Positions 42,514-62,542 of a stretch of DNA of 64,000 nucleotides are shown here, piece after piece; the first letter of the stretch is position 1; each line of letters starts with the position of its first letter. The DNA is from Powellomyces hirtus (lineage: Eukaryota > Chytridiomycota > Chytridiomycetes > Spizellomycetales > Powellomycetaceae). The notes beneath the pieces were generated by a model. It was not told the DNA's origin. It made no database searches and saw nothing but the letters and a program-made list of their open reading frames with translations. The translations under genes and the position numbers were made by a program. The stretch spans positions 372,001-436,000 of the forward strand of contig JAHLKG010000022.1 in assembly GCA_025526995.1 (NCBI GenBank), given 5' to 3'.

Positions 42514-43013
42514 TGTTGAGACGTCTTGACATCTACAAACAGGAACTCAGCATACCAGATAGGTTGCTAGGTTGTTGTCAAGACTTGCAGAGGGTCTGAA
42601 GGTGCTTCCCAAGGTAGGGAAGGTCGCCTGTAGTGTTTGGCAGAGTGTACTAGACAAGTAGAGTGTGTTGGACTGTTATTATATTGGTTGGGGATGCCCA
42701 GAGGGCGTCCTTTAATAACAATTTGGATCATAGTACATGTGTAGTGACAATCTAACTGTGCCCTAGCTTGGCCAAGACGGCCCTGGCCTGGCCTAGTATT
42801 GTTCCCAATCACAGGGTGTCTTTTTGCCTTTTCTTGGCGCTTCTATCAGCGCTCCAGACGTGTTCTAGGCCTTCCCAGGCCCTCTCCAGCTATTCTGGAT
42901 CGTTCTAGACCATTCTGGACCATTCCAGACCATTCTAGACACAAGTGGATGTCCTCCCACATGTCCCGTGTGCTCTAAGTCCTCCCAGAGGCGCCCACAG
43001 GTAGATTCCAACA
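42514..43013 (-). repeat. Copia-A full LTR (3' LTR, copy 5)
   Basis: 500 bp, bounded outside by GGTTG and inside by the purine-rich tract next to the pol stop. Confidence 0.97.
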
Positions 43014-43020
43014 CTCCCAC

Positions 43021-46000
43021 TCACGAAACATGTTTTGTGATCCCACAGGCGTCCCTCAGTTTCAAGAACTGATCCCTAGCCAGTGGTTTTGTCAAGATGT
43101 CTGCAACCATGTCCTGAGTCGAGAGATACTCTAATGCAATCTCCAAGCGTCCTAGTGCTTCTCTGATAAAGTGGTACCTCACTTCAATGTGTTTGGTGCT
43201 GGCATGCAATGTCGGGTTCTTAGCAAGAGCGATGGCACCCTGGTTGTCCTCAAAGAGCATTGTGGGTCCATCCTGCTTGAATCCAAGCTCCCCTGCAAGC
43301 AGACGAAGCCAAACAGCTTCCTTGGTGCACTGGGCTAGTGCCATGTACTCTGCTTCCGTGCTTGAAAGAGCTACAGTGGTCTGCCGCTTGGATTGCCAGG
43401 TGATAGGCCCGTTGAACATGAAGATGAATCCAGTGGTTGATCTCCTTGTGTCCAAACATCCAGCATAGTCGGAATCCGAGTATCCAACCAGCTTCCTAGG
43501 CTCAGAGACATTCTCTTTGCCTCCCAGAAGGATTCCAAGTTCGCTTGTGCCCTTCAGGTATCTGATGATCCGCTTGGCAGCACTCCAATGCTCCTTTCCA
43601 GGCTTTGCAAGGTACTTGGACACAATTCCAACTGCAGCAGCAATGTCAGGGCGTGTTCCTAGCATGGCATAGATCAAACTGCCCACTGCATTCCTGTATG
43701 GCACAGAGCTCATCTCCAGCTCCTCCGTCTCATTCTGAGGTGCCATGTTGTTTCTGAGGTGCAGTCCATGTTCCATAGGCGTGGCATGAACCTTGGCATC
43801 TCCCATGTTGAATTTCGAAACGACCTCTTCAACATACTTCTTCTGAGACAACCAGATGGTGCGGGTGCTTCTGCTCCGTCTGATGTGAATCCCAAGGAAG
43901 TAATTCAGCTCTCCAAGGTCTGTCATCTCAAAAGCTCGCCTCAGCTCCTTCTTGACATCCCCCAGCTGTTCCTTGCTTGATGAGGCCACAATGAGGTCGT
44001 CCACATAGATCAGAATGTACTCTGTTGTCCCATTCTGACTCCTGTAGTACATGCAAGGCTCTGCAGTCGACTGCACAAAGCCCATAGACTTCAGTTTGTG
44101 GTCTATCTTGTGGTTGAAGCGCCTTGCTGATTGCTTGAGGCCGTAGAGGGGTCTCCCAAGCTTGCAGACCCGTCCTGGATGCTTGGAATCCTCAAAGCCC
44201 TCCGGTTGGCGCATGTAGATCACATAGTCCAGATCCCCTTGCAAGAATGCTGTCTTCACGTCCATCTGATGTGCCTCCAAGTCATCTGTGGCAATGATGG
44301 AGAACAGCAGTCTCATGGGACCAAACTTGGCAACAGGAGCAAACGTCTCCTGATAGTCCAATCCCTCTCTCTGAGAGAATCCCTTGGCAACAAGTCTTGC
44401 CTTGTATCTGTCAAGCTCTCCTGTGTCCTTCAGCTTTCGTTTGAAGACCCACTTGCATCCAATAGCTTTTCTGCCCGTTGGCAGATCCACAAGTTGCCAT
44501 GTCCCATTCTTGGCAAGAGCATCCATCTCTTCCTGAGCAGCCTGACGCCATTGTGAAGCATCTGGCATGGTCTGGCTCTCCTTGTAGCTTGTGGGCTCGT
44601 TTGAGACAAAGGAGACAGCATAGGCAACTGCAGCAACGTTTGCAGCGTTGCTTGAAGCCTTCCACCACTCTCCTGGCGGCTTCCTGAGTCTTTTGGGGGT
44701 TGGAGAAGGCTCTGCAGCACTCTCATAGTCAGAGGACGGCTCAGGGGTCCGTTCCCTCATGTTCTCCTCTCCCTCTGACATGTCTGTGTCCTCAGAGTCG
44801 TTACTGACATCCTGCAGCTCGTCACTGACATCCTGCAGCTCGTCACTGACATCCTGCAGCTTCATTTCGGGCCCAATTCCCACTTCCAGGCTCTCAGCAG
44901 GCACTTGGGGCGTCTGAGCAGACTGGAGGGATGGAATGAAGCTCTTCTCATCGAATTTGACACTTCTGGAGAACAGGATCTTCTTAGTCTGTATGTCCAT
45001 AAGCCGGTATTCCTTGCTGTGGGAGCTATACCCCAGCATGATGCACTTGACAGCAGCATCATCCAGCTTCTGGCGCTTGTTGGGTTGAATGTAGGCATAG
45101 GCAATGCATCCAAACGTCCTCAAATGTCCCAGAGATGGTGGGATACCAAGGAACATCTCATAAGGCGTCTTGGGGCATGCAACAGTGGGAGATCTGTTCC
45201 TCAGATAGACTGCTGTCATGATTGCTTCTCCCCAGAAACGCTTGTCCAAGCCTGACTGCTTCAACAAACATCTCCCCATCTCCACAAGGGTACGGTTGGC
45301 TCGTTCAGCAACACCATTTTGCTGTGGAGTATTTACTGAACTCCTCTGATGCTGTGTGCCCTTCTCCTTGAAGTGGTCCCTTAGCAAGTTGCTCATGTAC
45401 TCGCCTCCTGGGTCGGATCTGACAGCTTTGATCTGCTTTCCATGTAGGGGGACAAGTGCTGCTTCCAGCTCCTGATAGTGCCTAGCAACTTCTCCCTTGG
45501 TCTTCATAAGGCAAACATGGAAATATCTTGTCTTGTCATCAATGAATGTGACAAAATAGCGATATCCAGTGATCGTGGGTGGTTCAACTGGTCCCCAGAC
45601 ATCTGTGTGGATCAATCCCAGCTTCTCTGATGCTCTGAAGGCCTGTGCCTTGGGGAATGGCGCTCTGCTTGCTTTGCTGAGTGCACAAGTGTCACAAATG
45701 CTCAAGCTCCCACTAGTTTGAACGCCCTTGGCAAGCTTGGTGAGCCTTCCAATGTCTGCAACGTTCAAATGGCCGAGTCTCTGATGCCATAGGGACAAGT
45801 CCTGACTTGTTGTGTCCCTTCCAACATTGTGGGCAATCCCAGCATTTGCCTGCCCATGTGTTGTCTCGAATGTGTAGACAAATTGGTTCTCTTTGGCAAG
45901 GAAAGCCATCCCATCCTTTGCAATGATCCGAGCAGCCTGTGGTCCCACTTCAAAACAAGCTCCAGCTTTGGCAAGGCGAGCCAGTGATAGGAGGTTCTTG

Positions 46001-47073
46001 GTCATCTTGGGGACGTGCCAGCAGTTCTGGATTTGCAGGGGCACTGTCTTCCCCTCTGTGTTGATCACCCATGTGTGAAGCGTTCCATGCCCCACAGCTT
46101 CCAATGTGTGATTGTCTGCCATCTCAATGGCGACAGGAGACATCTTCTCATAGTCCCCAAACAGCTCTCTGCGGCCAGTCATGTGCTGAGAGGCTCCTGA
46201 GTCCAAAATCCAAGTGTTGGATGTCAGGGATGGCATCTGAGTTCCAATGGTGGTGAAAGCAAAGCCTCCAGGCGTCTGTTGAGTTGAGTTGGCCTGGTTT
46301 AGGCCCTTCTTCTCGTCTGCTGCCCTCTTGTGGCATTCCTTCTTGATGTGGCCCTTCTTGTTGCAGTAGTGACAGACTGCCTCCTTCTTCCAATCTGGCT
46401 TTCCCCCAGCCTTGTTGGTCTTCTGAGCATTCCCTTTGGTGTCAGCTTGTGTGAAGAAGGCTTTTGCTGCCTTTCCAGAGTTCTTCTTTCCATCTGCACG
46501 CCTCATTTCCTCCTGCAACAGCCTGGATGTCACAAAAGCCAAGTCCAGCTTCTCACTGGTCGACTCCAGAGTCATCACAAGGGTGTCAAAGGCTTCTGGA
46601 AGGGAAGAGAGCAAGGAGAACACATGGTCCTCCTCAGAAACGGGAGCTCTGATGGCTGCAAGTTCCTGGGTCATCCTCTTGATCTTGTTGATGTGGATGG
46701 TCATGGAATCAGTTGGGTCCATTGTCACAGTGAGGAACCGACGTCTCAGGAAGTGTCTGTTGGCAACCCCCTTCTTCTCATGCACCTCCCTCAGCTTTTC
46801 CCATGCTTCAAGGGCGGATTCAGCCTCATGAACATGCATCAATTGCTCATCATTCAAAGACATGATCAGCAGAGCCAGAGCTCTCTCATCTCGACGTATC
46901 CAGTCGTCTGATGCTGTGTTGGTGGCCTTGGCAGTTCCTGAGCCGTCCTTGATGTCAATGGCATCCCAAAGTCCCTTCTCAATCAACAGCATCTTCATTT
47001 TCAACTTCCAAAGGTGAAAGTTCTCCCCAGTGAACCTCTCAATGGACACTCGGCTGTCAGAGTCGCCAGCCAT
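43021..47073 (-). CDS. Copia-A Gag-Pol polyprotein, copy 5 (1,350 aa)
   Basis: This intact frame on the minus strand starts at the ATG at 47073-47071. All motifs are present: CCHC knuckle, DSGASQHM, HTDVWGP/SDPGGEY/GVAER integrase triad, YVDD, and RNase H STEAEY and FEDNQG. Three LQDVS repeats are in the linker. It differs from copies 2-4 at a few residues (for example AAIRAPVS for AAIGAPVS, AQAFRAS for AQASRAS, SQREGL for SQRKGL). With two full LTRs and no lesion seen, it could supply integrase and RT to defective elements. Confidence 0.97.
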   Translation of the reverse strand: MAGDSDSRVSIERFTGENFHLWKLKMKMLLIEKGLWDAIDIKDGSGTAKATNTASDDWIRRDERALALLIMSLNDEQLMHVHEAESALEAWEKLREVHEKKGVANRHFLRRRFLTVTMDPTDSMTIHINKIKRMTQELAAIRAPVSEEDHVFSLLSSLPEAFDTLVMTLESTSEKLDLAFVTSRLLQEEMRRADGKKNSGKAAKAFFTQADTKGNAQKTNKAGGKPDWKKEAVCHYCNKKGHIKKECHKRAADEKKGLNQANSTQQTPGGFAFTTIGTQMPSLTSNTWILDSGASQHMTGRRELFGDYEKMSPVAIEMADNHTLEAVGHGTLHTWVINTEGKTVPLQIQNCWHVPKMTKNLLSLARLAKAGACFEVGPQAARIIAKDGMAFLAKENQFVYTFETTHGQANAGIAHNVGRDTTSQDLSLWHQRLGHLNVADIGRLTKLAKGVQTSGSLSICDTCALSKASRAPFPKAQAFRASEKLGLIHTDVWGPVEPPTITGYRYFVTFIDDKTRYFHVCLMKTKGEVARHYQELEAALVPLHGKQIKAVRSDPGGEYMSNLLRDHFKEKGTQHQRSSVNTPQQNGVAERANRTLVEMGRCLLKQSGLDKRFWGEAIMTAVYLRNRSPTVACPKTPYEMFLGIPPSLGHLRTFGCIAYAYIQPNKRQKLDDAAVKCIMLGYSSHSKEYRLMDIQTKKILFSRSVKFDEKSFIPSLQSAQTPQVPAESLEVGIGPEMKLQDVSDELQDVSDELQDVSNDSEDTDMSEGEENMRERTPEPSSDYESAAEPSPTPKRLRKPPGEWWKASSNAANVAAVAYAVSFVSNEPTSYKESQTMPDASQWRQAAQEEMDALAKNGTWQLVDLPTGRKAIGCKWVFKRKLKDTGELDRYKARLVAKGFSQREGLDYQETFAPVAKFGPMRLLFSIIATDDLEAHQMDVKTAFLQGDLDYVIYMRQPEGFEDSKHPGRVCKLGRPLYGLKQSARRFNHKIDHKLKSMGFVQSTAEPCMYYRSQNGTTEYILIYVDDLIVASSSKEQLGDVKKELRRAFEMTDLGELNYFLGIHIRRSRSTRTIWLSQKKYVEEVVSKFNMGDAKVHATPMEHGLHLRNNMAPQNETEELEMSSVPYRNAVGSLIYAMLGTRPDIAAAVGIVSKYLAKPGKEHWSAAKRIIRYLKGTSELGILLGGKENVSEPRKLVGYSDSDYAGCLDTRRSTTGFIFMFNGPITWQSKRQTTVALSSTEAEYMALAQCTKEAVWLRLLAGELGFKQDGPTMLFEDNQGAIALAKNPTLHASTKHIEVRYHFIREALGRLEIALEYLSTQDMVADILTKPLARDQFLKLRDACGITKHVS

Positions 47074-47352
47074 CTTGTGCAAAGAGTGTGGCAAAATGGG
47101 ATAGTCCCGGTGTTCAACCGCAAGTGGTCAGAACCTGCTCCAGAAAATCCACTCCAGTCCAGTCCAGTCCAGACAATAGCTCGTTTGATGGTCAGACGCA
47201 GGTGTCCTATGCCTGCTATCTAGGCTTCTCGAGTGCTCAAACAGTTCTCCAAGTCCTCAGCAGCACCAGTGATAGGCACAGTGACGTGTTTCCCAGATAG
47301 GGATAGAGGTGGAGTCAGTAATGTTCAGACAGCTGTGTCAGGGCTCATAACC

Positions 47353-47852
47353 TGTTGAGACGTCTTGACATCTACAAACAGGAACTCAGCATACCAGATA
47401 GGTTGCTAGGTTGTTGTCAAGACTTGCAGAGGGTCTGAAGGTGCTTCCCAAGGTAGGGAAGGTCGCCTGTAGTGTTTGGCAGAGTGTACTAGACAAGTAG
47501 AGTGTGTTGGACTGTTATTATATTGGTTGGGGATGCCCAGAGGGCGTCCTTTAATAACAATTTGGATCATAGTACATGTGTAGTGACAATCTAACTGTGC
47601 CCTAGCTTGGCCAAGACGGCCCTGGCCTGGCCTAGTATTGTTCCCAATCACAGGGTGTCTTTTTGCCTTTTCTTGGCGCTTCTATCAGCGCTCCAGACGT
47701 GTTCTAGGCCTTCCCAGGCCCTCTCCAGCTATTCTGGATCGTTCTAGACCATTCTGGACCATTCCAGACCATTCTAGACACAAGTGGATGTCCTCCCACA
47801 TGTCCCGTGTGCTCTAAGTCCTCCCAGAGGCGCCCACAGGTAGATTCCAACA
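47353..47852 (-). repeat. Copia-A full LTR (5' LTR, copy 5)
   Basis: 500 bp, with the PBS at 47352-47338 and GGTTG at 47853-47857. It includes the TATA-like AATATAATAA and the five-fold 10-bp GAA array. Confidence 0.97.
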
Positions 47853-48392: not shown

Positions 48393-48660
48393 ATAGCTTC
48401 CCCCCTCCCTTTTTCTCCCCTTTCTTGTACATAATTTCGTCCTTTGCTGGCTTCGGGCCTGGCCTTTGGGCCAAACCAATGAAATTCACTACCAAAATCT
48501 CATTGCTGTGCTTCCCCAAGTCTTGTGACATCTTGTATGTAACCGCTGTGTCCAGCATCGCTCGACTTCCTTCTGGCTATGGTGCTCCTGGTTGATGCCC
48601 TTCATTACCCATCCCAGCTGGGGAAGACCGTCCAGCAATCCCCCTGCTGTTGTCCAACAA
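48393..48660. other. 3' flank of the host-like gene
   Basis: CT-rich sequence follows the inferred stop at 48392, then a TTGTACATAATTTCG stretch that could serve 3'-end formation. No convincing gene was seen. Confidence 0.35.
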
Positions 48661-49165
48661 TGCCAGCACCTCACCTTGTAGAGTACACTGTCTTGCAGTC
48701 TTCGGCTCATTGTCCAATGATCTTGACATCTCACCTAGTGAAATACACTGCCTTGCAGTCTTTGGCTCATCACCCCACAATCCCAGCATCTCACCCAGTG
48801 AGGTATATTGCCTTGCAGTCTTTGGCTCATTGCTGAGCAATGCCGTCATCTCACCAAGTGAGGTATACTGCCTTGCAGTCTTCGGCTCATTGCCCATTGA
48901 TCCTGGCATCTCACCTAGTAAGGTACACTGCCTCACAGTCTTTGGCCCATCATTTAACAATGCTGAATCTTGGCCAAAGCTCTTCTTTTCCCCTTTGTGT
49001 GGGTATGTACTGTGGCCATGGGCCCTGTAGGTCTTGCCCAGCGATCCCAGCATCTTGCCCAGTGAGGTATGCTGCCCAATGGTCTTTGGCCCATCAACAA
49101 CACTGACATCTTGCCCAGCAAGGTATGCTGCCCAGCAGTCTTCAGCCATCGTCCAACAATGCCGG
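48661..49165. repeat. 60-bp minisatellite
   Basis: Five imperfect 60-bp units occupy 48661-48960, each containing CATCTCACC.AGTGA and CTTGCAGTCTT.GGCTCAT. After a ~70-bp interruption, degenerate shorter units continue to about 49165. Since 60 is a multiple of three, both strands stay open. The minus strand reads a 20-residue repeat (NEPKTARQYTSLGEM...), but this is probably a consequence of the period and not evidence of a gene. Confidence 0.85.
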
Positions 49166-50731: not shown

Positions 50732-50979
50732 ATGCCTCCTGCAAGATCTCCCATTCAAGGAGTGCAACAAGCCCGTCAAGCCATACAAGAACCTGAACGG
50801 GGTCCTGACGCTGAAGGAGATGTTAATATCAATGCCTCAATCTACCATGATTCCCACGACACAGATGCTGATGTGGATGAGATGAATCATGGAGAAATTC
50901 ATGCAGACCTGGCAACAGAACCGTCCGGAATACCGACTGACATTGTCATGGAAATCCTGCGGAGGTTCAAGATGGAAAT
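50732..50979 (+). pseudogene. Copia-B gag start, split by Copia-C
   Basis: It opens at the ATG at 50732 (MPPARSPIQGVQQARQ) and matches Copia-B Gag for about 82 codons, to ...RRFKMEI. There Copia-C is inserted. The sequence resumes at 56348 after the GAAAT duplication. Compared with other copies, a short TRQ-type segment is missing near residue 11. Confidence 0.85.
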
Positions 50980-51236
50980 TGTTGTGCGTAGGTCCGGTTA
51001 AGGGGTAGTGCAACAGAGGAAAGCTAGCTTGACACTCTCAATGACAATGGAATGATTGTGTTGTTGTTAAGTGTAAACGATGGGTGAAAGAGATCTACGC
51101 TAAGAAGAAGAAAGGTGGCTGTGCAAGCTATCTAAGCATATGCGGTTAAATGAAGCACCAGTGCGCAGCAGAAGTGGCGTGGGGTCTTGGAGCGCTGTCA
51201 ATTCGACAGGTTTATCTCACAAGTCCAGTTTCAACA
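50980..51236 (-). repeat. Copia-C 3' LTR (257 bp)
   Basis: On the minus strand it runs TGTTGAAACT...GCACAACA. It differs from the 5' LTR at a few sites (for example the terminal CGCACAACA/CACCCAACA). Its plus strand contains an ATG at 51150 that is in frame with the RING gene. Confidence 0.95.
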
Positions 51237-51260
51237 CTCCCCCGACTTTTGAGACCAAAC

Positions 51261-51701
51261 ATGCCACAAAATGGTCGAGCTCCGAAGTGTCCCGTTTGTC
51301 TTTTTCGAGATGCCGAGTTCTGTGGGGACTGCGGGCACCTGCGGTGCTTCCAATGTTTGAAGTACATTTGGGTGACACCTGACAACGCCGCACGCAGATG
51401 TGTTATCTGCAGGTAAGGAAGGAGCTCCGTTGTGCTGGTTTCAGGGTACTGATATGTCGCATTGCACAGAAAGCGGTGGGTTAACCTCTTTGAAGGGGAA
51501 GTCACGAGAAGGCAGTGTGACAGGTGTTACGAAAACAAAGACTGTTGGACGCCGCACGCTTGTGGAGAAAATGACCCCTGTTTTCTGTGTGAGAGCTGTT
51601 CACAGGGTCTGCTGCATCGAAGTGGAGAAGAACGCTGCCCAAGATGCAACAAGTCGGATCGTCGATTGAGATGGTGGTTGCGGCGGGTGTATTTCAACTA
51701 G
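51261..51701 (+). CDS. RING-finger protein carried antisense in Copia-C (127 aa, one intron)
   Basis: Exons 51261-51412 and 51470-51701 flank a 57-nt intron with donor GTAAGG, branch TACTGAT and acceptor TGCACAG; the reading phase is kept. Residues 10-50 form a textbook C3HC4 RING: C10, C13, C24, H26, C29, C32, C47, C50. A second Cys-rich cluster follows (CDRC at 67-70, HAC at 80-82, CFLCESC at 88-94, CPRC at 107-110), then a basic Trp/Arg-rich tail. RING domains usually recruit E2 enzymes as ubiquitin ligases; activity here is inferred. The stop (51699-51701) is 18 bp from the converging pol stop, and the start is 24 bp from the LTR, so the gene fills the space exactly. An in-frame ATG at 51150 in the LTR could add 37 residues. 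No lesion is seen, unlike pol. Antisense placement protects the intron from removal during retrotransposition. Confidence 0.8.
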
Positions 51702-51719
51702 ACTTATGACGGGCGTATA

Positions 51720-54420
51720 TCAATGAGATTTGGCGTAGTCTGCTTTCGTTCGGAGTCCAGTTCGGTGTCGCAGATCATCAAGTAATGGGCGAGGTAGCGG
51801 TTTTGTCAGGGCGTCAGCAAGCATGAGCTTGGACTCAATGTACTGTAGGTGAATGCGCTCGTTACCAACAAGGTCTCGCAGGAAGTGATAACGGACATTG
51901 ATGTGTTTGGTTCATTGGTGAAGCGTCGGATTGGCAGCAAGCTTGATAGAGGCCTGATTGTCCTCATAGATGAGAACTGCTGTCTGCTCCGTTGCTGACA
52001 GTTCGGATAGGACACCCTGGATCCAGAGTGCTTCCTTTGCACATTCCGCGAGTGCAATGTATTCTGCTTCTGCTGTGGATAGCGCCGTTGATTTTTGACG
52101 TTGAGATTTCCATGAAATGGCAGCTCCATTGAGCATGAATACATAGCCAGAGGTTGAGCGACGCATGTCTGTACAGCGTGCGTCGTCGGCATCCGAATAT
52201 CTGACAATATCTCCCCCATCTTTGAAGACAAGAGAGAGATCACTGGTTGTGTTTGCGTACGCGCAAACTTTCTTTGCGGCCGTCATGTGTGCGGCCGTCG
52301 GTGCTGCCAGAAACTGAGATAAGCGGGAGACTGAGTAGGCCAGGTCGGGGCAAGTCCCTAACATCAGATACATTAGGGTTCCAATGATCGACTGATATTC
52401 CTTGATTCCTGATGCGTCGAGAGCGTCGGCTCCATCGTTCGCATTTAAATGTAGGTTTGGGTCCATCGGGATGTGATGCGGCTGCATGCCGTTAAGGTTA
52501 AACTTGACGATCATGTCTTTGATGTACTTCTGTTGGCCGACAGTGATGCAGCGCTTTGACCGGTCGCGCGTAATCTGAAGACCGAGAAGGAAGGAGATCT
52601 CCCCCATTTCCTCCATCTTAAAGCGTTCGGCAAGCGCAGACTTGAGAGCGAGCAGGTCATTGAGGTCTGATGTGAAAATCGTGAGATCATCCATGTAGAC
52701 GGCAACAATCAGAATCTTTGTGTTGTCAGTCCGCTTGATGTAAAGCGCGGTGTCGAATTCTGATACTGAACACCCAAGCTGTTGAAGGAAGGAGTCAAGA
52801 ACCTTGTTCCATAGGCGCGGCGATTGTTTAAGGCCGTAAAGAGACCGGCGTAGTTTGACGATGTCATCGGCAACGCCGGCTGGAAGCCGCATCCAGATCT
52901 CTACGTCGAGATATCCGTTGAGAAATGCGGTGATGACGTCCATCTGATGGACGTAAAGGTCGAGCTTAGCGGCAAGCGCAAGTAGCGCCCGCAAGGTGTT
53001 GAACTTGACGACGGGTGCATATGTTTTGTTGAAGTCAATGCCTTCACGCTGCGTGAAGCCTCGGGCGACGAGGCGAGCTTTGAACTTCTTGATGGAACCA
53101 TCGGCGTTGCGTTTGACTTTGAAGACCCATTTAGAATCAACAAGATGAGTGCCGGGCGGTGTTTGCGTGGTATCCGTGTCCCACGTCTTGTTAGTGCGGT
53201 GAGATGAGAGTTCGGCATCGATCGCTTGTTTCCACTCTTTTGCGTACGGCGAGTTGACTGCCGCCTGGTAAGTGGCGGGCTCGTCGATGTCAGTGCTGCA
53301 TGCGGCATGCAATTCGGCAATTACAGGTGTGCCGTCCTCTTCGATTCCGGTGAATCGCGTCAGGGCCTCTGAGTCCTTGACGTTGTCTAGGGGTTCCCAT
53401 GTTGGTTCATCGTAGCCAAGCCACTTGACCAGGAATTCCTCTCCCCCTTCGCCGTTGCGAGAGAGTAAGATGCGCTCAACCACATATTCGGGAGTGGTGT
53501 CGCTCTGAGCGACAGGGCTGATGTAATCAGCCTCGTTGATTGTGACGTCTTGTGCGTCGATGATCGAATCCGTCGATGCATCATAAAGGCGATAGTTGCT
53601 TTGTTTAGTGGGGTGATATCCCACTAGTCGGAACGGTCCGACAGCGCGAGCTCCGAGCTTGCGGTGTGTGCGACGGCGCACAGGTTGATGCATATAGGCC
53701 TCGCTCCAGATGGTGCGGAGGTTCAATACATCGGCAGGGGTCCCAAACCAACGTTGGTATGGGGTCTCTCCGTTGAGAGACGTTGATGGCGTCCGTTGAC
53801 GCAGATAGTTGACGGCCATAGCGAGTTCTCCCCAAACTTTGAAAGGAGCGGGGCTGTCATGAAGAATTGCTCGGACCTGGTCCATGAGCGTATGGTTGAA
53901 CCGTTCAGCAATGCCATTTTGCTGAGAGGAGTACGGGTGAGTAGGGTTTAACGTGATCCCATCGGAGAGCAGCTCAGCCTGTAGGGGATAGTATTCACCG
54001 CCGTTATCGCAGCGCAGCTCCTTGATCTTGGAGTCGAGATGACGTTCAGCGTACGCGCGATAGTTTTGCCAATAATCGATGCTTTGATCTTTGGTCTTGA
54101 GGAGGTAGATGACGGAATACCGTGTGTATTTGTCGATGAACGTGAGGATGTAGCGGGCGCCAGAGAGAGAGAGAAGACTGGCGCCCATGTCAAGGATGTC
54201 CGAATGTATGCGATCAAGAGGTTTGGTCGCAGGTCGAGGGTTTTGCCCATTGAAGGGCAGCCGGGTGGATTTACCGAGAGAGCAGCCGGAGCACAACGCG
54301 TGCTCCGGTTCGACGTTGTTTGGCAGATCGAGAGAATAGATCAGATTCGCAGCTTGGAGCGCTCGTTGTCCGATGTGCCCAAAGCGTTGGTGCCATAGTT
54401 TATAGACATTGCGGTCCTTT
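51720..54420 (-). pseudogene. Copia-C integrase-chromodomain-RT-RNase H
   Basis: The main frame 54296-51912 continues upstream to about 54420 with the integrase zinc module (KLWHQRFGHIG ... CSGCSLGK). Integrase keeps its triad: HSD, CDNGGEYY and NGIAER. At about 53480-53355 lies a chromodomain, starting EYVVERILLSRNG and continuing FLVKWLGYDEPTWEPLDN, with cage residues Y, W, Y. RT has YMDD (VYMDDLTIF), and RNase H has STAEAEYIAL and YEDNQASI. A TGA at 51914-51912 (after NPTLHQ) cuts the last ~64 codons, which continue in frame to the natural stop at 51722-51720. A frameshift near 54420 separates it from protease. Present lesions: one stop, one shift. Confidence 0.85.
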
Positions 54421-55348
54421 GTTTTGCAGCTTCGGTCGCAAAAGCAGCGGCGGTGGTCTTGACGTAGCCATTGATAAATGGCAGGTTTCCGTTGTGGCGG
54501 AGCGGCAGGATGACGTGGCCGTCCTTTGAAATAGAGGAACCTTTAGTTGAGAACGTAATCTCATAACCTTCCTGGTTCAAGGGCGATGTGGAAACCAAGT
54601 TGCGGCTTGCGTCGGGTACGTAGAGTACGTCGACGCAGACGATAGCTTCGTCTGTGTCGTTATTGCTGACGGTGAGCGTGCCTGCTTGACGAGCGATGAG
54701 GTTTTCGCCGTTTGCAACGCTGATTTGAACTGCCGGGATGGGTCGCAGGTCGGTGAGAAGGATAGTGTCCTTGATGACGTGATGCGTCGCGCAAGAGTCG
54801 AGAGCAATTGAGTGCAAGGATCTGTGGTTCGTTGCCAAAACGAGGTTTGCTTCGGCAGCGGGTCCTTGTTGATGTTGTTTGAGAAGCGCACGCGGGTTTC
54901 TCATTTGCGGGCAGTCCTTCATCCAATGACCAGTTTGTTTACAGAGGTGACAAGGAGACCCTGGGACTAAGCGGCGACGTTGTTGTTGATCCTTCCGTGG
55001 ATACGTTTTCCACAGTTTTCGATGCGCGTGTGCGTTGACGTTGGCGTTGGCGGCCGGGCCACCGTGCATCACATGAGCCTCAACGCGAGACTCGTTTTTG
55101 GGCGCGCGGCCACCCTGCTCTGAGGTAAGCTGTTCCTGACGAGTTGCAGCTTCCTGCATGACTTCTAGATCCAAGAGATCCTTTGAGATGATGGCAGAGT
55201 AGATGGGACGTTTGAGTCCCTTGACATAGCGGTGCTCGATCTCTCCTTTGTTCATGTCGGGGATCTGCATGACAAGCTTGTTGAACACATTGTTGTATGC
55301 AACGACCGACGTGGTTTGCGAGAGATCATCCAGCTTATCACGGATCAT
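54341..55348 (-). CDS. Copia-C Gag C-terminal half and protease
   Basis: This frame of 335 codons starts MIRDKLDDLSQ and continues the Gag domain begun in the upstream frame. It has a CCHC knuckle (CHLCKQTGHWMKDC) and a protease whose motif reads ALDSCATHHV (DSC where DSG is usual). It ends out of frame with integrase. It overlaps the upstream gag frame by 11 nt (ATGATCCGTGA). Because the split falls inside the Gag domain, a 1-nt deletion is more likely than programmed frameshifting, although the overlapping ATG could allow reinitiation. Confidence 0.75.
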   Translation of the reverse strand: MIRDKLDDLSQTTSVVAYNNVFNKLVMQIPDMNKGEIEHRYVKGLKRPIYSAIISKDLLDLEVMQEAATRQEQLTSEQGGRAPKNESRVEAHVMHGGPAANANVNAHAHRKLWKTYPRKDQQQRRRLVPGSPCHLCKQTGHWMKDCPQMRNPRALLKQHQQGPAAEANLVLATNHRSLHSIALDSCATHHVIKDTILLTDLRPIPAVQISVANGENLIARQAGTLTVSNNDTDEAIVCVDVLYVPDASRNLVSTSPLNQEGYEITFSTKGSSISKDGHVILPLRHNGNLPFINGYVKTTAAAFATEAAKQRTAMSINYGTNALGTSDNERSKLRI

Positions 55349-56009
55349 TGAACTGAATGCTGGTGGTGTGAACCTCAGACGTAGCGCTGTTTTGCAGAAG
55401 ATTCCACGTTTGGGGAGCGGTCCCCTGGCTTTCCTGAGTCCTCCACCAAATGTGAGCGGTGGATGTGAGTTTGCTCACCACCATCTTCGTTTCGGGAAGC
55501 GGCGGAAGGTATGCAACCTCAAAGAAGTCGTCTAGTTTTGCAATGAATTCGAGAAGCAGTTGCGGACTGCTCACATCGCCGTTGAAGTTAGGAACCTGCT
55601 TAAAAAGCTCCTTTGCAACGGGATTCATCGAGGACGAAGTGGGAGAAGAGTTCTCCGACGAACGAGAGTCTGGGCGGTCTTCTGGGAAGACTTGAGAGCT
55701 TGCAGCGGCGGCCGTCTGCATTTGCATCTGTGCAAAAGTGGAGATCATCTTCTTCATCATCTCTCGTTGTGACTCGGCGGCGAGTCGCGGCGATTCTAGC
55801 AGCATGCGTTCCTGCATTTTGGCGGTAATGCGTTGGGATTCCAACAGCGCCTTCTCCAAATACTCCTTAGTGACGACCGCATCGTCGGGTCGACCGGCTC
55901 GACCTCTGTCGTCCTTGCTGCGAGGACCCCCATCTGCAGAAGCCTGCACCGGCGCAGGCGCAGTGTTTGTTCCGGACCGGGTCCGAACGGGGCTACGGGA
56001 CAATGGCAT
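55338..56009 (-). CDS. Copia-C Gag N-terminal half
   Basis: It starts at the ATG at 56009-56007 (MPLSRSPVRTRSG). The N-terminus resembles Copia-B Gag (MPTARSPIQGVQTRQQ), suggesting common descent. It has an Arg/Glu-rich helical region, then a capsid-like segment (VPNFNGDVSSPQLLLEFIAKLDDFF, AHIWWRTQ). It stops at 55338 and the Gag sequence goes on in the next frame from 55348. Confidence 0.8.
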   Translation of the reverse strand: MPLSRSPVRTRSGTNTAPAPVQASADGGPRSKDDRGRAGRPDDAVVTKEYLEKALLESQRITAKMQERMLLESPRLAAESQREMMKKMISTFAQMQMQTAAAASSQVFPEDRPDSRSSENSSPTSSSMNPVAKELFKQVPNFNGDVSSPQLLLEFIAKLDDFFEVAYLPPLPETKMVVSKLTSTAHIWWRTQESQGTAPQTWNLLQNSATSEVHTTSIQFNDP

Positions 56010-56075
56010 GATTGAGTATTGAACAACGAGAAGAAGGATACAGGAAACTCGTCGTTTTAAGCGTTGAGCGGGCTA

Positions 56076-56090
56076 TCAGGGCTCATAACC
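56076..56090 (-). promoter_or_regulatory. half-tRNA-iMet primer-binding site (Copia-C)
   Basis: On the minus strand GGTTATGAGCCCTGA directly follows the LTR, identical to the sites of Copia-A and Copia-B. Confidence 0.85.
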
Positions 56091-56347
56091 TGTTGGGTGT
56101 AGGTCCGGTTAAGGGGTAGTGCAACAGAGGAAAGCTAGCTCGACACTCTCAATGACAATGGAATGATTGTGTTGTTGTTAAGTGTAAACGATGGGTGAAA
56201 GAGATCTACGCTAAGAAGAAGAAAGGTGGCTGTGCAAGTTATCTAAGCATACGCGGTTAAATGAAGCACCAGTGCGCAGCAGAAGTGGCGTGGGGTCTTG
56301 GAGCGCTGTCGATTTGACAGGTTTATCTCACAAGTCCAGTTTCAACA
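56091..56347 (-). repeat. Copia-C 5' LTR (257 bp)
   Basis: Same length as the 3' LTR, with few differences, followed by the second GAAAT copy at 56348-56352. Confidence 0.95.
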
Positions 56348-56352
56348 GAAAT

Positions 56353-58866
56353 CAACGAAAGGCTTGAACATTGGATGGACAGGTTGGAGAGGACTTTATT
56401 GACTAGTTCAAACCCTCCCGCTACATCAACTTCCCATCAACAACCCGAAAAGTACAAATGACCTCATATTGGTGGTCATACTATGGCCGTTTCACCGATG
56501 AGAAGCCCAAAAGCAGGCCTTGAGTACCCTTTCCTACATCAACACATCACTCACGGCGAAGTTGAAGCCCCAGTTGCCCCTCACTTTCGTCCGTCTTCCC
56601 CAACGGAAAGCACAACAACTACGAGCAGCAGAAAGAGCGATGATCGCGACGCACAACGTACATCATTCGCGTACTTCAAATCTGCGATCGATGCAGTAAC
56701 TACATTCGACGGGACAGGAAATCTCTCAAAACTCGCCAACTTCATTGATCAACTTACTCTAGTCTTTCGCCTAAAACTTGTATCTGAAGAAGAACAACTC
56801 TCATTCATCTTCACGAAGCTCTCTGGCGAAGCAAAACAATGGTATCGTAATCACCAGAAAGATGCCGAACAAGGGATGGTGGAGCCCATCACGGATTGGG
56901 AATCCTTCAAGCCTCCCTTCCTCTCGCGTTACCAACCAAGCGATCACGAGGAAACTTTGCTCACTCAACTTGAAAGACTCCGACAAGGAAGTCATTCCAT
57001 CTTGCAGTACAATACCTCATTCACGAAGATTACAAGTCAAATCCTCTTGAAGGTGCCGTTCGAAATCTACAAGTGGTTTTATCTTTGCGGAATGAATGAA
57101 CATCATGCAGAGCTTGTCAGAACTCAAAGTTTCAAGGATCTCCATGGCCTCATGGCAGCTGCCAAGCGTCTGGATAACGGAAGTAACGAGAGTAACCAAA
57201 ATAACCGATTCGCCAAGAAGAGCGAAAACATCGCGCTCGAAGCCCAACCTTCAAAGAAAGACGGCTCAAGTCACAAGAAGACCGACGCGAAGAAGACCAC
57301 AGACTCGAAGAAGAGACAGAACTTCCCCTGTTGGTTATGCAATTCAAATGAACATACCCCATTCAATTGTCCCCTCAAAGCCAAGGCAGTCAAAGCCTTA
57401 AAACCCGCTGCTAATGCCAACATTGCAGAAGCACATAACGCCATTACACTGGCTTACCTGGATTCGGGCTGCTCACAGCACATGACAAATGACATTTCCA
57501 TTCTCGAATCCTATGAAGAGCACTCAACGCGCGTCAGATTTGGAAACAACGCCTTTCTCGATGCCGAAGTGAAAGGGAACGCTATCTTGAAGCTTCCGGA
57601 TGGAGATGTACCTCTCACTGATGTTCTCTACGTTCCGAAACTCGCCAAGACTCTCATCTCAGTCTCCGCACTCACCAAAGATGGAAAGAGAGTCACCTTT
57701 GAAGATGAGAGCGCTATCATTCAAGACTGCAATGGCACTACGAATGACATCACCATACCTCTCGTTCGAGGAATGTATCACATCTCGCCAACTCCAATGG
57801 CTTTCGCTACTCAAACTCGCTTAAGGACAAACACGTCCAATGTACTGACACACGCGTTGAAAAATACATCTACCGAATTGACAAAATGGATGAACGCGTC
57901 CAATGTACCAACAGACGCATCCGATACATCGATTCAAACCACAGCCACAGCCTCTTTTGGTCCCTCTACTCTTGTCAACAAAGGAACCCTCTGGCATCAC
58001 CCTTTGATCCATCCTGGTGGCCATATGATGAAGCAACTCAAGCTCCCAATGACCAACAAAGTCTGCAAAGGTTGCGAGTTTGGTAAGCACAAGCGCTCAC
58101 CATTCAACGGCACAGTGACACGGTCCAAGACCCCTCTCGATTTCCTACATTTCAACCTTGACGGCCTGCACATACCCACAGTTGGCAATGAGAAATATGC
58201 CCTTGTTGTGATTGATGATTATTCACACCTCAAATGGATCTTCTTTTTGACGGCAAAGGACAAAGCTACTGCAAAGTTGATTGAATTCATCAACTTCATC
58301 AAAAATCAGACCAACAAACAGGTCAGCCGACTCCAATCCAATGGAAAGAGGGAGTTTGTCCATCACAATCTGAAAAAATTCATTTCAAAAAAGGGCATCC
58401 TGCACGAACTCACTGCTGCAGATTCCCCACAGCCCAACAGTGTAGCAGGAAGGTTCAACCTCACCCTGTTCAACACCATACGTTTATTGGGACACTCATA
58501 CGGCATCCCAAAACAACTCTGGAGCGAGTTAGCAGCTACATCAGTCTATTTATGGAATCGTCTCCCCCACAAGTCCAATAAAACATCTCACTGTACAAAC
58601 AGCTTAACGGCAAAGAGCTCTCACTTTCTCACCTTCACGTGGTTTGGGCCAATGCCTTTGTGCATTTTGTCAAGAGAAAACAAGTCTCACAGTTGGCACC
58701 ACGCGCCACACATATGAGATTCATTGGTTACAAATTTCACGGTGCTTACCGCTGTTGGGATGACAACCGTCAAGAAATAGTCATTTCTTGCCGTGTAACA
58801 TTCTACAAAATCTCAGCACCCAAACTCGCAGAAGACTACATCCCACCTGAAGATTTACAAAGTTGA
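56353..58866 (+). pseudogene. Copia-B gag-protease-integrase (first plus-strand copy, continued)
   Basis: This continues the gag begun at 50732. A TGA at 56459-56461 breaks Gag; the next 744-codon frame, 56483-58717, covers the rest of Gag, the knuckle CWLCNSNEHTPFNC, protease YLDSGCSQHM and the integrase core. The integrase tail lies in the neighbouring frame to 58866 (RFIGYKFHGAYRCWDD). The catalytic triad is absent in the same way as in the minus-strand copies (HFNLDG, SNGKREF, NSVAGR). The frameshift near 58590 is shared. Confidence 0.85.
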
Positions 58867-59275
58867 AGAGATTCTTGACTCACATGACGGCCCGGAAGGT
58901 GCTGAATTCCTCTGCAAATGGTTGGTATTCGAAGACAACAAAAATACATGGGAACCGATCGAAAATGTCAACCACTTGATGGTCTTTGCAAATTACATCA
59001 ACAAGAAGAGAGCAAATGCTCTTTTGGCTGCAAGTACTGGAGAACCCCAAACCTACAAACAAGCGCTTCCATCCAACAACGCGCCAAAGTGGACCAAGGC
59101 CATAAATGCCGAATTGAAGTCCCTTCATACCAATGAAACATGGGAAGTCAGCAACCCCAAATCCGTACCGCACAATCAACAGCCCATCCACACCAGATGG
59201 GTATTCAAGATTAAGCAAGACTGAATGGTCAACCTCAACGTTACAACGCCCGGCTTGTTGTGAAAGGCTGCAAAC
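58850..59275 (+). pseudogene. Copia-B chromodomain and RT stub
   Basis: From 58850 the frame reads IYKVEEILDSHD, then FLCKWLVFEDNKNTWEPIENV (a chromodomain), then the RT N-terminus to KIKQD at 59221. After a 1-nt shift (shared by the other copies) RT goes on as LNGQPQRYNARLVVKGCK and stops at the LTR border, 59275/59276. The rest of RT, RNase H and the polypurine tract are deleted. Confidence 0.8.
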
Positions 59276-59657
59276 TATTGGAATGTTGAGACTTGCGTAC
59301 TCAACGTTTGGTCCTTACATTAGATCCTTACTTGGATTCTCTGACTAGAACGCGTGACCGCCATACCGGTAATGCTAAGAGCTGAATTGGATCACGTGGG
59401 ATCACGTGATTGAAGAAAAGGTAGATTAGAACGCTCAAAGCGAGACATTACCGATAAGACTTTAAGACATAAAATACATTCACATACATTACATCTCCCT
59501 GCATCTGACAACGCTACATCATCAACTGCATCACAGAAGAGCTCTGTAACCCCCCCCCCCCCCCCCCCCCCCTTACGAAGTATACTGGAGGCCACATCGA
59601 ATTCGGCCAATCCTCTGCAATTCCGATAAAGTACTGGAAGTGCCGATATCTCTAACA
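59276..59657 (+). repeat. Copia-B LTR shared by tandem copies
   Basis: It runs from TATTGGAATG to CTCTAACA, with paired CACGTG boxes at 59393-59398 and 59403-59408 and a run of 23 C near 59550-59572. The PBS is at 59658-59672. It is the 3' LTR of the preceding copy and the 5' LTR of the next. Confidence 0.9.
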
Positions 59658-59772
59658 GGTTATGAGCCCTGAGACTGGTCGAATTCGAATCATTCTCCCT
59701 TCGTAAAACCTGTAAACTACAAGTCTTCCGTCGAAATTCAAGTGCCAAGAAAGTACCGAGCACACCGTCAAG

Positions 59773-62542
59773 ATGCCTACTGTAAGATCTCCCATTCAAG
59801 GAGTGCAGACCCGCCAACAAGCCCGTCAAGCCACACGAGAAGCCCAACGGGGTCCTGATGCTGAAGAAGACGTTAATATCGATGCCTCGATCTACCATGA
59901 TTCCCACGACGCAGATGCCGATGTGGATGAGATGAATCATGGAGAAATTCATGCAGACTCGGCGATAGTACCGTCCGAAGTACCGACTGACATTGTCATG
60001 GAAATTCTGCAGAGGTTCAAGATGGAAATCGACAAAAAGCTTGACCATCGGATGGACAGGTTGGAGAGGACTTTATTGACTAGTTCAAACTCTCTCGCTA
60101 CATTAACTTCCCATCAACAACCCGAGAAGTACGAGAAGCCTCATATCGGTGGTCATCCTATGGCCGTTTCACCGATGAGAAGCCCAAAAGCGGGCCTTGA
60201 GTACCCTTTTCTACATCAACACATTACTCACGGCGAAGTTGAAGCCCCAGTTGCCCCTCACTTTCGTCCGTCTTCCCCAACGGAAAGCACAACAACTACG
60301 AGCAGCAGAAAGAGCGATGATCGCGACGCACAATGTACATCATTCGCGTACTTCAAATCTGCGATCGATGCAGTAACTACATTCGACGGGACAGGAAATC
60401 TCTCAAAACTCGCCGACTTCATTGATCAACTTACTCTAGTCTTTCGCCTAAAACTTGTATCTGAAGAAGAACAACTCTCATTCATCTTCACGAAGCTCTC
60501 TGGCGAAGCAAAACAATGGTATCGTAATCACCAGAAAGATGCCGAACAAGGGATGGTGGAGCCCATCACGGATTGGGAATCCTTCAAGCCTCCCTTCCCC
60601 TGCGTTACCAACCAACCGATCACAAAGAAACTTTGCTCACTCAACTTGAAAGACTCCGACAAGGAAGTCATTCCATTTCGCAGTACAATACCTCATTCAC
60701 GAAGATTACAAGTCAAATCCCCTTGAAGGTGCCGTTCGAAATCTACAAGTGGTTTTATCTTTGCGGAATGAATGAACATCATGCAGAGCTTGTCAGAACT
60801 CAAAGTTTCAAGGATCTCCATGGCCTCATGGCAGCTGCCAAGCGTCTGGATAACGGAAGTAACGAGAGTAACCAAAATAACCGATTCGCCAAGAAGAGCG
60901 AAAACATCGCGCTCGAAGCCCAACCTTCAAAGAAAGACGGCTCAAGTCACAAGAAGACCGACGCGAAGAAGACCACAGACTCGAAGAAGAGACAGAACTT
61001 CCCCTGTTGGTTATGCAATTCGAATGAACATACCCCATTCAATTGTCCCCTCAAAGCCAAGGCAGTCAAAGCCTTAAAACCCGCTGCTAATGCCAACATT
61101 GCAGAAGCACATAACGCCATTACACTGGCTTACCTGGATTCGGGCTGCTCACAGCACATGACAAATGACATTTCCATTCTCGAATCCTATGAAGAGCACT
61201 CAACGCGCGTCAGATTTGGAAACAACGCCTTTCTCGATGCCAAAGTGAAAGGGAACGCTATCTTGAAGCTTCCGGATGGAGATGTACCTCTCACTGATGT
61301 TCTCTACGTTCCGAAACTCGCCAAGACTCTCATCTCAGTCTCCGCACTCACCAAAGATGGAAAGAGAGTCACCTTTGAAGATGAGAGCGCTATCATTCAA
61401 GACTGCAATGGCACTACGAATGACATCACCATACCTCTCGTTCGAGGAATGTATCACATCTCGCCAACTCCGATGGCTTTCGCTACTCAAACTCGCTTAA
61501 GGACAAACACGTCCAATGTACTGACACACGCGTTGAAAAATACATCTACCGAATTGACAAAATGGATGAACGCGTCCAATGTACCAACAGACGCATCCGA
61601 TACATCGATTCAAACCACAGCCACAGCCTCTTTTGGTCCCTCTACTCTTGTCAACAAAGGAACCCTCTGGCATCACCCTTTGATCCATCCTGGTGGCCAT
61701 ATGATGAAGCAACTCAAGCTCCCAATGACCAACAAAGTCTGCAAAGGTTGCGAGTTTGGTAAGCACAAGCGCTCACCATTCAACGGCACAGTGACACGGT
61801 CCAAGACCCCTCTCGATTTCCTACATTTCAACCTTGACGGCCTGCACATACCCACAGTTGGCAATGAGAAATATGCCCTTGTTGTGATTGATGATTATTC
61901 ACACCTCACATGGATCTTCTTTTTGACGGCAAAGGACAAAGCTACTGCAAAGTTGATTGAATTCATCAACTTCATCAAAAATCAGACCAACAAACAGGTC
62001 AGCCGACTCCAATCCAATGGAAAGAGGGAGTTTGTCCATCACAATCTGAAAAAATTCATTTCAAAAAAGGGCATCCTGCACGAACTCACTGCTGCAGATT
62101 CCCCACAGCCCAACAGTGTAGCAGGAAGGTTCAACCTCACCCTGTTCAACACCATACGTTTATTGGGACACTCATACGGCATCCCAAAACAACTCTGGAG
62201 CGAGTTAGCAGCTACATCAGTCTATTTATGGAATCGTCTCCCCCACAAGTCCAATAAAACATCTCACTGTACAAACAGCTTAACGGCAAAGAGCTCTCAC
62301 TTTCTCACCTTCACGTGGTTTGGGCCAATGCCTTTGTGCATTTTGTCAAGAGAAAACAAGTCTCACAGTTGGCACCACGCGCCACACATATGAGATTCAT
62401 TGGTTACAAATTTCACGGTGCTTACCGCTGTTGGGATGACAACCGTCAAGAAATAGTCATTTCTTGCCGTGTAACATTCTACAAAATCTCAGCACCCAAA
62501 CTCGCAGAAGACTACATCCCACCTGAAGATTTACAAAGTTGA
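59773..62542 (+). pseudogene. Copia-B gag-protease-integrase, second plus-strand copy
   Basis: It starts at the ATG at 59773 (MPTVRSPIQGVQTRQQ). A 1-nt deletion near 60597 ends the first frame at 60726; Gag resumes in the frame running to 62393 (knuckle, DSG protease, integrase core lacking D, D and E). The integrase tail follows in the next frame to 62542. Apart from the private deletion and a few substitutions it matches the copy at 56353-58866 closely. Confidence 0.85.

Follow-up and report, generated by a model that had tools for sequence, protein, structure and literature searches.

The 64,000-nucleotide stretch of Powellomyces hirtus DNA analysed here (contig JAHLKG010000022.1, positions 372,001 to 436,000; hereafter the window) contains a long terminal repeat (LTR) retrotransposon with a Copia-type pol, and between the end of this pol and the 3' LTR lies, on the opposite strand, a two-exon gene whose product has all the zinc ligands of a C3HC4 RING finger. 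Most family members have the gene in this position; it keeps its intron, is under constraint, and has a diverged homologue outside of the element in the same genome. We consider it likely that this Copia-type family carries an accessory gene, probably captured from the cell, which would be spliced and would encode a ubiquitin ligase directed against a host factor limiting the element.

The gene of the window copy occupies 51261-51701 on the plus strand and encodes 127 aa (Table 1). A first-pass annotation of the same DNA had placed in the interval 51237-51722 an antisense gene with two exons, complete C3HC4 ligands and a second Cys-rich cluster; all of these positions were confirmed, together with the distance between the two converging stop codons and that of 24 bp between the ATG and the LTR edge, although the interval corresponds to the whole span from the LTR to the pol stop rather than to the gene itself. 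The eight RING ligands (C10, C13, C24, H26, C29, C32, C47 and C50) show the canonical spacing, and additional cysteines are found at positions 21, 67, 70, 76, 82, 88, 91, 94, 107 and 110. The eight Cys of exon 2, C-x2-C-x11-C-x(2-5)-C-x2-C-x2-C-x12-C-x2-C, are invariant in ten sequences and RING-like in their spacing.

The genome surveyed comprises 29.3 Mb in 60 contigs (C-numbers denote contigs and L-numbers loci) and holds about 40 copies of the element family. As the genome searches score best candidates only, the counts are lower bounds, and two duplicate loci were removed before all of them. A DNA search with the 486-base interval gave at least 41 matches of 80-100% identity, 35 of them spanning at least 464 of the 486 bases, besides truncated pieces at C34:56924, C23:259246 and C39:44251 that are left out of the copy count. 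These 41 matches, and the persistence of the spliced frame, the splice sites and the zinc ligands across copies, indicate that the gene is not a product of chance. A search with reverse transcriptase-RNase H at 70% identity or more listed 38 pol copies, and in 35 of these the RING gene is located antisense directly downstream of pol, the distance to the pol match being exactly 193 bp in 26 cases. None of the three remaining copies shows a complete 3' end: the one on C13 is located at the contig end, on C10 the pol match ends 16 residues short of the query end and is followed by other sequence, and C32:121758 abuts the LTR of another copy, as judged from the coordinates.

Flanks were fetched for 20 of the approximately 40 copies, and 14 of them have both LTRs. 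Perfect 5-bp duplications were found for L013, L014, L015, L019, L022, L023, L024 and the window element, while the tandem pair L010/L011 is flanked by a GTGGG duplication, so that LTR pairs and duplications enclose the gene in eight single copies and one tandem pair. The first-pass annotation had regarded the gene as a part of the transposed unit to be looked for at the same place in other copies, and the linkage in the 35 copies agrees with it on both counts. A host gene nested in the element, or a neighbour outside of it, would share with our gene the opposite strand and the intron and nothing more; this explanation, which the constant position and the enclosing LTRs and target duplications led us to reject, retains hardly any credence. 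The LTR pairs are identical in L010, L011 and L014, which suggests recent insertion, and gag (590 codons) and pol (912 codons) are open in six of the 20 fetched copies, all six with an intact RING gene. Tandem elements with a shared LTR were observed for L010 with L011 (C3:1777500-1790412) and for L009 (C22:449477-457300). In the window copy the frame and splice sites of the gene are intact, as had been noted, though the N-terminal part of gag is split from the remainder and pol has an in-frame stop at 51909-51911, just downstream of its main open piece. Among the 41 stretches 19 are scored as intact, 16 of these encoding 127 aa and two more starting one codon later.

The analyses of 35 well-aligned copies leave out six stretches that are broken or partial; the donor is missing from two of the six, L045 and one piece of L046. 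In the 35 copies the GT donor and the CAG acceptor are present in 35 of 35, and in all 41 stretches GT is found in 39 and CAG in 40. A loose branch-like motif, for which there is no chance control, occurs in 33 of the 35, and the first intron codon is an in-frame stop in every one of them, in part as a consequence of the donor consensus and hence not as independent evidence. The diverged gene L048 (C1:350941-351352), which is intact, encodes 119 aa with 49% identity to the window protein and has all 16 ligands, contains a 67-nt intron whose position and phase are the same, and the damaged copy L050 (C3:1068877) lacks the intron exactly, which constitutes genomic evidence of splicing in the cellular gene. 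Read-through of stop codons instead of splicing was rejected, since the intron of the window copy, though its 57 nt are a multiple of three, contains two in-frame stops, and the homologue has an intron of 67 nt; two separate open reading frames (ORFs) are unlikely, as the exon junction is exact in L050. The splice signals, the homologue and the intronless relic provide comparative, indirect support for a gene that is really spliced. The unspliced product would be a RING of 51 residues ending at Arg51, and one may speculate that it represents an alternative product. Transposition leaves the intron in place, since reverse transcription acts on the sense RNA alone, in which the antisense splice signals go unread; its retention in 35 of 35 well-aligned copies is what the first-pass annotation had expected on these grounds.

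The comparison of dN/dS (the ratio of nonsynonymous to synonymous substitution rates) between copies, a check proposed in the first-pass annotation, reveals constraint, with values of 0.46 for the RING gene and 0.21 for pol in 378 matched pairs from 28 copies, the pairs not being independent; over the same pairs dS is nearly equal (0.179 and 0.169, respectively). A codon model on 21 sequences, a set taking in L018, L027 and L035 with an altered C-terminal end and two sequences starting one codon later, gave an omega of 0.63 with a log-likelihood of -1700.2 vs -1705.8 at omega 1 (best of the kappa values tried). The 16 zinc ligands have a mean conservation of 98.8% vs 87% for the other residues (Mann-Whitney p 6e-6, neither residues nor copies being independent), with the RING ligands individually conserved at 94-100% in the 35 copies, and the C-terminal tail is the least variable of eight non-ligand stretches compared. 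A control over reading frames gave a ratio of 0.53 in the gene frame; of the five others, the mirror antisense frame showed 0.56 and the remaining four 0.82-0.94. The dN/dS values, the codon model, the frame control and the ligand conservation indicate that the protein matters, though it changes faster than pol.

These data bear on two explanations that dispense with a functional protein. In the first, the antisense RNA is the useful product, acting through double-stranded RNA, silencing or control of transcription, and the open frame would be there by accident. LTR elements are known to produce antisense RNAs that lack coding capacity (excerpts of PMC7264820); however, the constraint lies in the gene frame and the zinc ligands are selectively kept, all 16 being common to L048 despite its divergence, and we regard this explanation as quite improbable. 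In the second, a captured gene fragment would be a passive hitch-hiker without function, which accords with the 22 of 41 stretches that are not intact and with an omega of 0.735 over all 35 copies, dead ones included. The RING gene is nevertheless intact in every one of the six elements whose gag and pol are open, omega is below 1 in the intact set and the ligands are conserved, which makes a passive fragment improbable. In the 35-copy set 16 internal stops were counted, of which 11 are TGA at Arg6, Arg16, Arg101 or Arg116 (CGA in the window copy), which would fit decay at CpG.

In a tree test with 12 sequences the RING data reject the pol tree (approximately unbiased test, 1.9e-5), whereas the RING tree is compatible with the pol data (0.13). 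An exchange of 3' ends between elements, seen from one side only, is likely, and template switching is a plausible way for it to occur. The same result is relevant to a further explanation, in which a genuine protein would act on the element and not on the host, by turnover of Gag or integrase or by limiting copy number in the way HBZ and APH-2 damp the expression of human T-cell leukaemia viruses (HTLV). Several HTLV antisense proteins repress their own 5' LTR or replication (excerpts of PMC10186651), and the gene adjoins pol in the great majority of the listed copies; against this, a RING gene evolving faster than pol at nearly equal dS and rejecting the pol tree resembles more an accessory gene under changing pressure, although this is suggestive only. 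We consider such self-regulation unlikely, while taking it for the main rival to a role against the host.

Concerning the kind of protein, a profile of the family matches solved RING structures in the PDB, with RNF4 at E=1.5e-5, where two stretches of the chain are matched, and weaker matches to single RNF4 chains (0.007-0.008), COP1 (0.005) and TRIM2 (0.008); a RIM2 zinc finger is matched at 0.005 as well. The RING profile match that the first-pass annotation had proposed as a check was obtained with the family profile and not with single sequences. Arg51, the residue following the last RING cysteine, is present in 35 of 35 copies, and V or I at position 12 in 34 of 35. We take Arg51 to be the 'linchpin' position of active ligases and the CP(V/I)C motif together with this Arg to be features of such ligases, and these conserved residues are presumably important for E2 binding. 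The protein resembles RING-type E3 ligases (RNF4, COP1, TRIM) in the C3HC4 spacing, the CP(V/I)C motif, the Arg after the last Cys and the profile match, and differs from them in that no full-length homologue was found, Pfam scores lie below cut-off and the second module with eight Cys is without clear family; for this module the best Pfam match is weak (zf-C3HC4_3, 0.012) and the top PDB matches are not RINGs. The protein is probably a ubiquitin ligase.

The relatives outside of the element include, besides L048 and L050, a duplicate of the L048 gene on C34 with 92.6% identity and a stop in exon 1, and fragments of the RING gene on C17, C5 and C11. Around L048 and L049 no match to the LTR or the pol piece of the element family was found within the fetched ~3 kb (3.1 kb at L048), and L048 is arranged head-to-head with an ORF that we take to be dynein-light-chain-like. 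On C34 the RING gene stands head-to-head with this frame too, and the frame has DNA matches at four places beyond C1, including C23:201487, C5:1516821 and C29:312759. The L050 relic (C3:1067500-1070500, about 1375-1690, minus), whose RING part as a whole turned up in a single copy, lies between the end of a Copia pol and a Gypsy-like integrase recognised by eye.

The simplest reading of these relatives is that one Copia lineage captured the gene from its host. The transfer may also have gone in the reverse direction, in which case the cellular copies on C1, C34, C17, C5, C3 and C11 would derive from an older Copia subfamily, as remnants that escaped or were exapted; several of them are indeed fragments, and the intronless L050 lies ~1 kb beyond another Copia pol end, antisense likewise. 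As the surroundings of L048 and L049 are free of matches to LTR or pol over the fetched distance, L048 stands head-to-head with a presumably dynein-light-chain-like frame, and a cellular origin explains a spliced gene more easily, we judge this reverse transfer rather unlikely.

We propose that the element acquired an intron-containing cellular gene, inserted in reverse between pol and the 3' LTR. An antisense promoter within the 3' LTR would drive its transcription, the transcript would be spliced, and its translation would yield a zinc protein of two modules, the C3HC4 RING and the RING-like module, which as a ubiquitin ligase may mark a host factor limiting the element for degradation. The complete chain, with a spliced cellular RING gene captured antisense, an intron kept by its orientation, a ligase destroying a host silencing or restriction factor and a relative of the donor still in the genome, is put forward tentatively, as a possibility below even chances.

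Several points weigh against the proposal. No promoter for the RING gene was identified in a scan whose consensus is bacterial and uninformative for this host; a TTAAAT 115 bp ahead of the ATG does not constitute evidence for a promoter. The dN/dS of the RING gene is twice that of pol, and the value of the mirror frame, though expected from the common wobble positions, is not separable by the frame test. Cysteines other than the ligands are also kept (C21 in 97%, C76 in 100%), and conservation is consequently no sharp test of ligands. The 22 stretches that are not intact count here as well, together with the paired LTRs without matching duplication in L017, L025, L026 and L027. Pfam RING matches of single sequences lie below the curated cut-offs: zf-C3HC4_4 reaches 15 bits vs a cut-off of 30 in the window copy, and the nearest are L048 with zf-C3HC4 (19.4 bits vs 21) and one copia copy with zf-RING_UBOX (22.9 vs 25.2). 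AlphaFold predictions from single sequences gave for exon 1 a middling mean predicted local distance difference test (pLDDT) score of 70 in the best of five models and 41-49 in the others, with three short strands and no helix, and for exon 2 a poor pLDDT of 56, neither model proving a RING fold. No homologue was found among 5.8 billion proteins, of which only candidates with common 5-residue words were scored, and phylogeny therefore cannot orient the transfer; viral contigs likewise yielded no homologue, whether the query was the RING profile or P0001. The role in attacking the host is what we infer, in competition with the self-regulation known for HBZ.

The element itself (Table 1) has the integrase upstream of the reverse transcriptase and an RVT_2 reverse transcriptase, as expected for Ty1/copia, and the copia label of the first-pass annotation holds in this respect; it is not a plain copia element, since gag matches PF03732 and PF19259 (Retrotrans_gag and Ty3_capsid) instead of PF14223 and pol contains a chromodomain. 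The element is a mosaic of a Copia-type pol with chromodomain and a gag matching Ty3-type models, and the same domain set occurs in at least one database relative. The closest named protein match of the pol piece is from Powellomyces hirtus, with 90% identity over the scored 451 residues. The likely primer-binding site probably resembles the anticodon arm of the initiator methionine tRNA. The element is inserted in repeated sequence, a second copy of which lies at 59438-60324.

Other features of the window were observed as well. A chromodomain-like stretch was recognised by eye at 58861-58990 (+), in adjacent element-like sequence downstream of the insertion, and a tandem repeat with a period of 60 bp, with six diverged units among those listed, is located at 48650-49096. 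A sibling Copia family is represented at 42514-47700 by a copy with identical 348-bp LTRs and an open gag-pol of 1368 codons. This family has at least 106 copies, many clustered on few contigs, with ~42% pol identity and a gag with PF14223, and in the one window copy examined the 159 bp between pol stop and LTR leave no room for such a gene.

Table 1. Features of the retrotransposon and of its antisense gene, in window positions.
Feature	Position	Strand	Remarks
Whole element	50980-56347	minus	LTR pair and GAAAT duplication
3' LTR	50980..51236	minus	257 bp
5' LTR	56091..56347	minus	257 bp, 7 differences vs 3' LTR
Target-site duplication GAAAT, left copy	50975..50979	none
Target-site duplication GAAAT, right copy	56348..56352	none
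Putative polypurine tract adjoining 3' LTR	51237..51246	minus	GTCGGGGGAG on element sense strand
RING gene exon 1	51261..51412	plus	start codon, all C3HC4 ligands C10-C50, 152 nt, ends in phase 2
Intron	51413..51469	plus	57 nt, GTAAGG...CTGAT...CAG, two in-frame stops
RING gene exon 2	51470..51701	plus	second Cys-rich module (eight invariant Cys), conserved basic/aromatic C-terminal tail, stop codon
pol stop codon	51720..51722	minus	18 bp from converging RING stop
Main open piece of pol	51912..54542	minus	integrase, SH3-like, chromodomain, RVT_2 reverse transcriptase, part of RNase H
Chromodomain PF00385	53352..53486	minus	E=1.2e-9, between integrase and reverse transcriptase
Open piece with gag matches	54341..55474	minus	Retrotrans_gag, CCHC knuckle, Pol_BBD
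gag N-terminal part	55338..56072	minus	assigned by position, without Pfam match
Likely primer-binding site	56077..56090	minus	GGTTATGAGCCCTG

Antisense ORFs between pol and the 3' LTR (aORF-3R) have been described as gene23 of Grande and in RIRE2, as TRP28 of Retand, in PvRetro13 and as brtn of Boty from Botrytis (excerpts of PMC7264820, PMC11963269 and PMC8365987). The RING gene lies likewise between the pol stop and the 3' LTR, opposite to gag-pol, and its presence in 35 of the 38 pol copies listed parallels the place, orientation and presence in most family copies of these ORFs as given in excerpts of PMC7264820 and PMC11963269. It differs from them in belonging to an element with a Copia-type pol, whereas Retand is a Gypsy element (PMC11963269) and brtn is found in BcGypsy1 (PMC8365987), according to the excerpts of both. 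A RING protein, an intron and a homologous gene outside of the element are further differences. For Grande, RIRE2 and PvRetro13 we presume the same contrast of superfamily with a Copia-type pol. A 2020 review states that similar gene sequences outside transposons are lacking and that the origin of most such ORFs is unknown (PMC7264820). HBZ of HTLV-1 and APH-2/3/4 are likewise spliced antisense genes expressed from the 3' LTR, features that for our gene are predicted as regards promoter and splicing; they belong to infectious retroviruses, and HBZ is a basic leucine zipper (bZIP) protein for which excerpts of the source mention no RING (PMC10186651). With Ty1/copia elements (Pseudoviridae) the element shares the order of integrase and reverse transcriptase, RVT_2, Pol_BBD and LTRs with 5-bp duplications, and it differs from them in the gag matching Retrotrans_gag and Ty3_capsid, the chromodomain in pol and the antisense gene.

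The first-pass annotation knew of no Ty1/copia element with such cargo, and titles and opening lines of abstracts of the papers listed from the open-licence PubMed Central literature likewise revealed no Copia element with an antisense, spliced antisense or RING gene. The main text of a survey of fungal LTR elements, as far as available, is without the words 'antisense', 'RING' or 'zinc finger' (PMC3248453), and neither of the two papers listed as naming the host species deals, by its title, with its elements. Antisense genes at this position were already known; new here, within the literature searched, is that a Copia-type element has a RING gene and that this gene has a relative in the cell. 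As this relative, with the same intron position and phase, is in the same genome, capture becomes testable, and the antisense orientation explains how an element that passes through reverse transcription retains an intron. If our proposal is true, a RING ligase would give the accessory gene of a non-viral retroelement a concrete and assayable activity, would suggest that these elements make proteins to resist control by the host, and would represent a retrotransposon counterpart of the accessory ubiquitin ligases of viruses.

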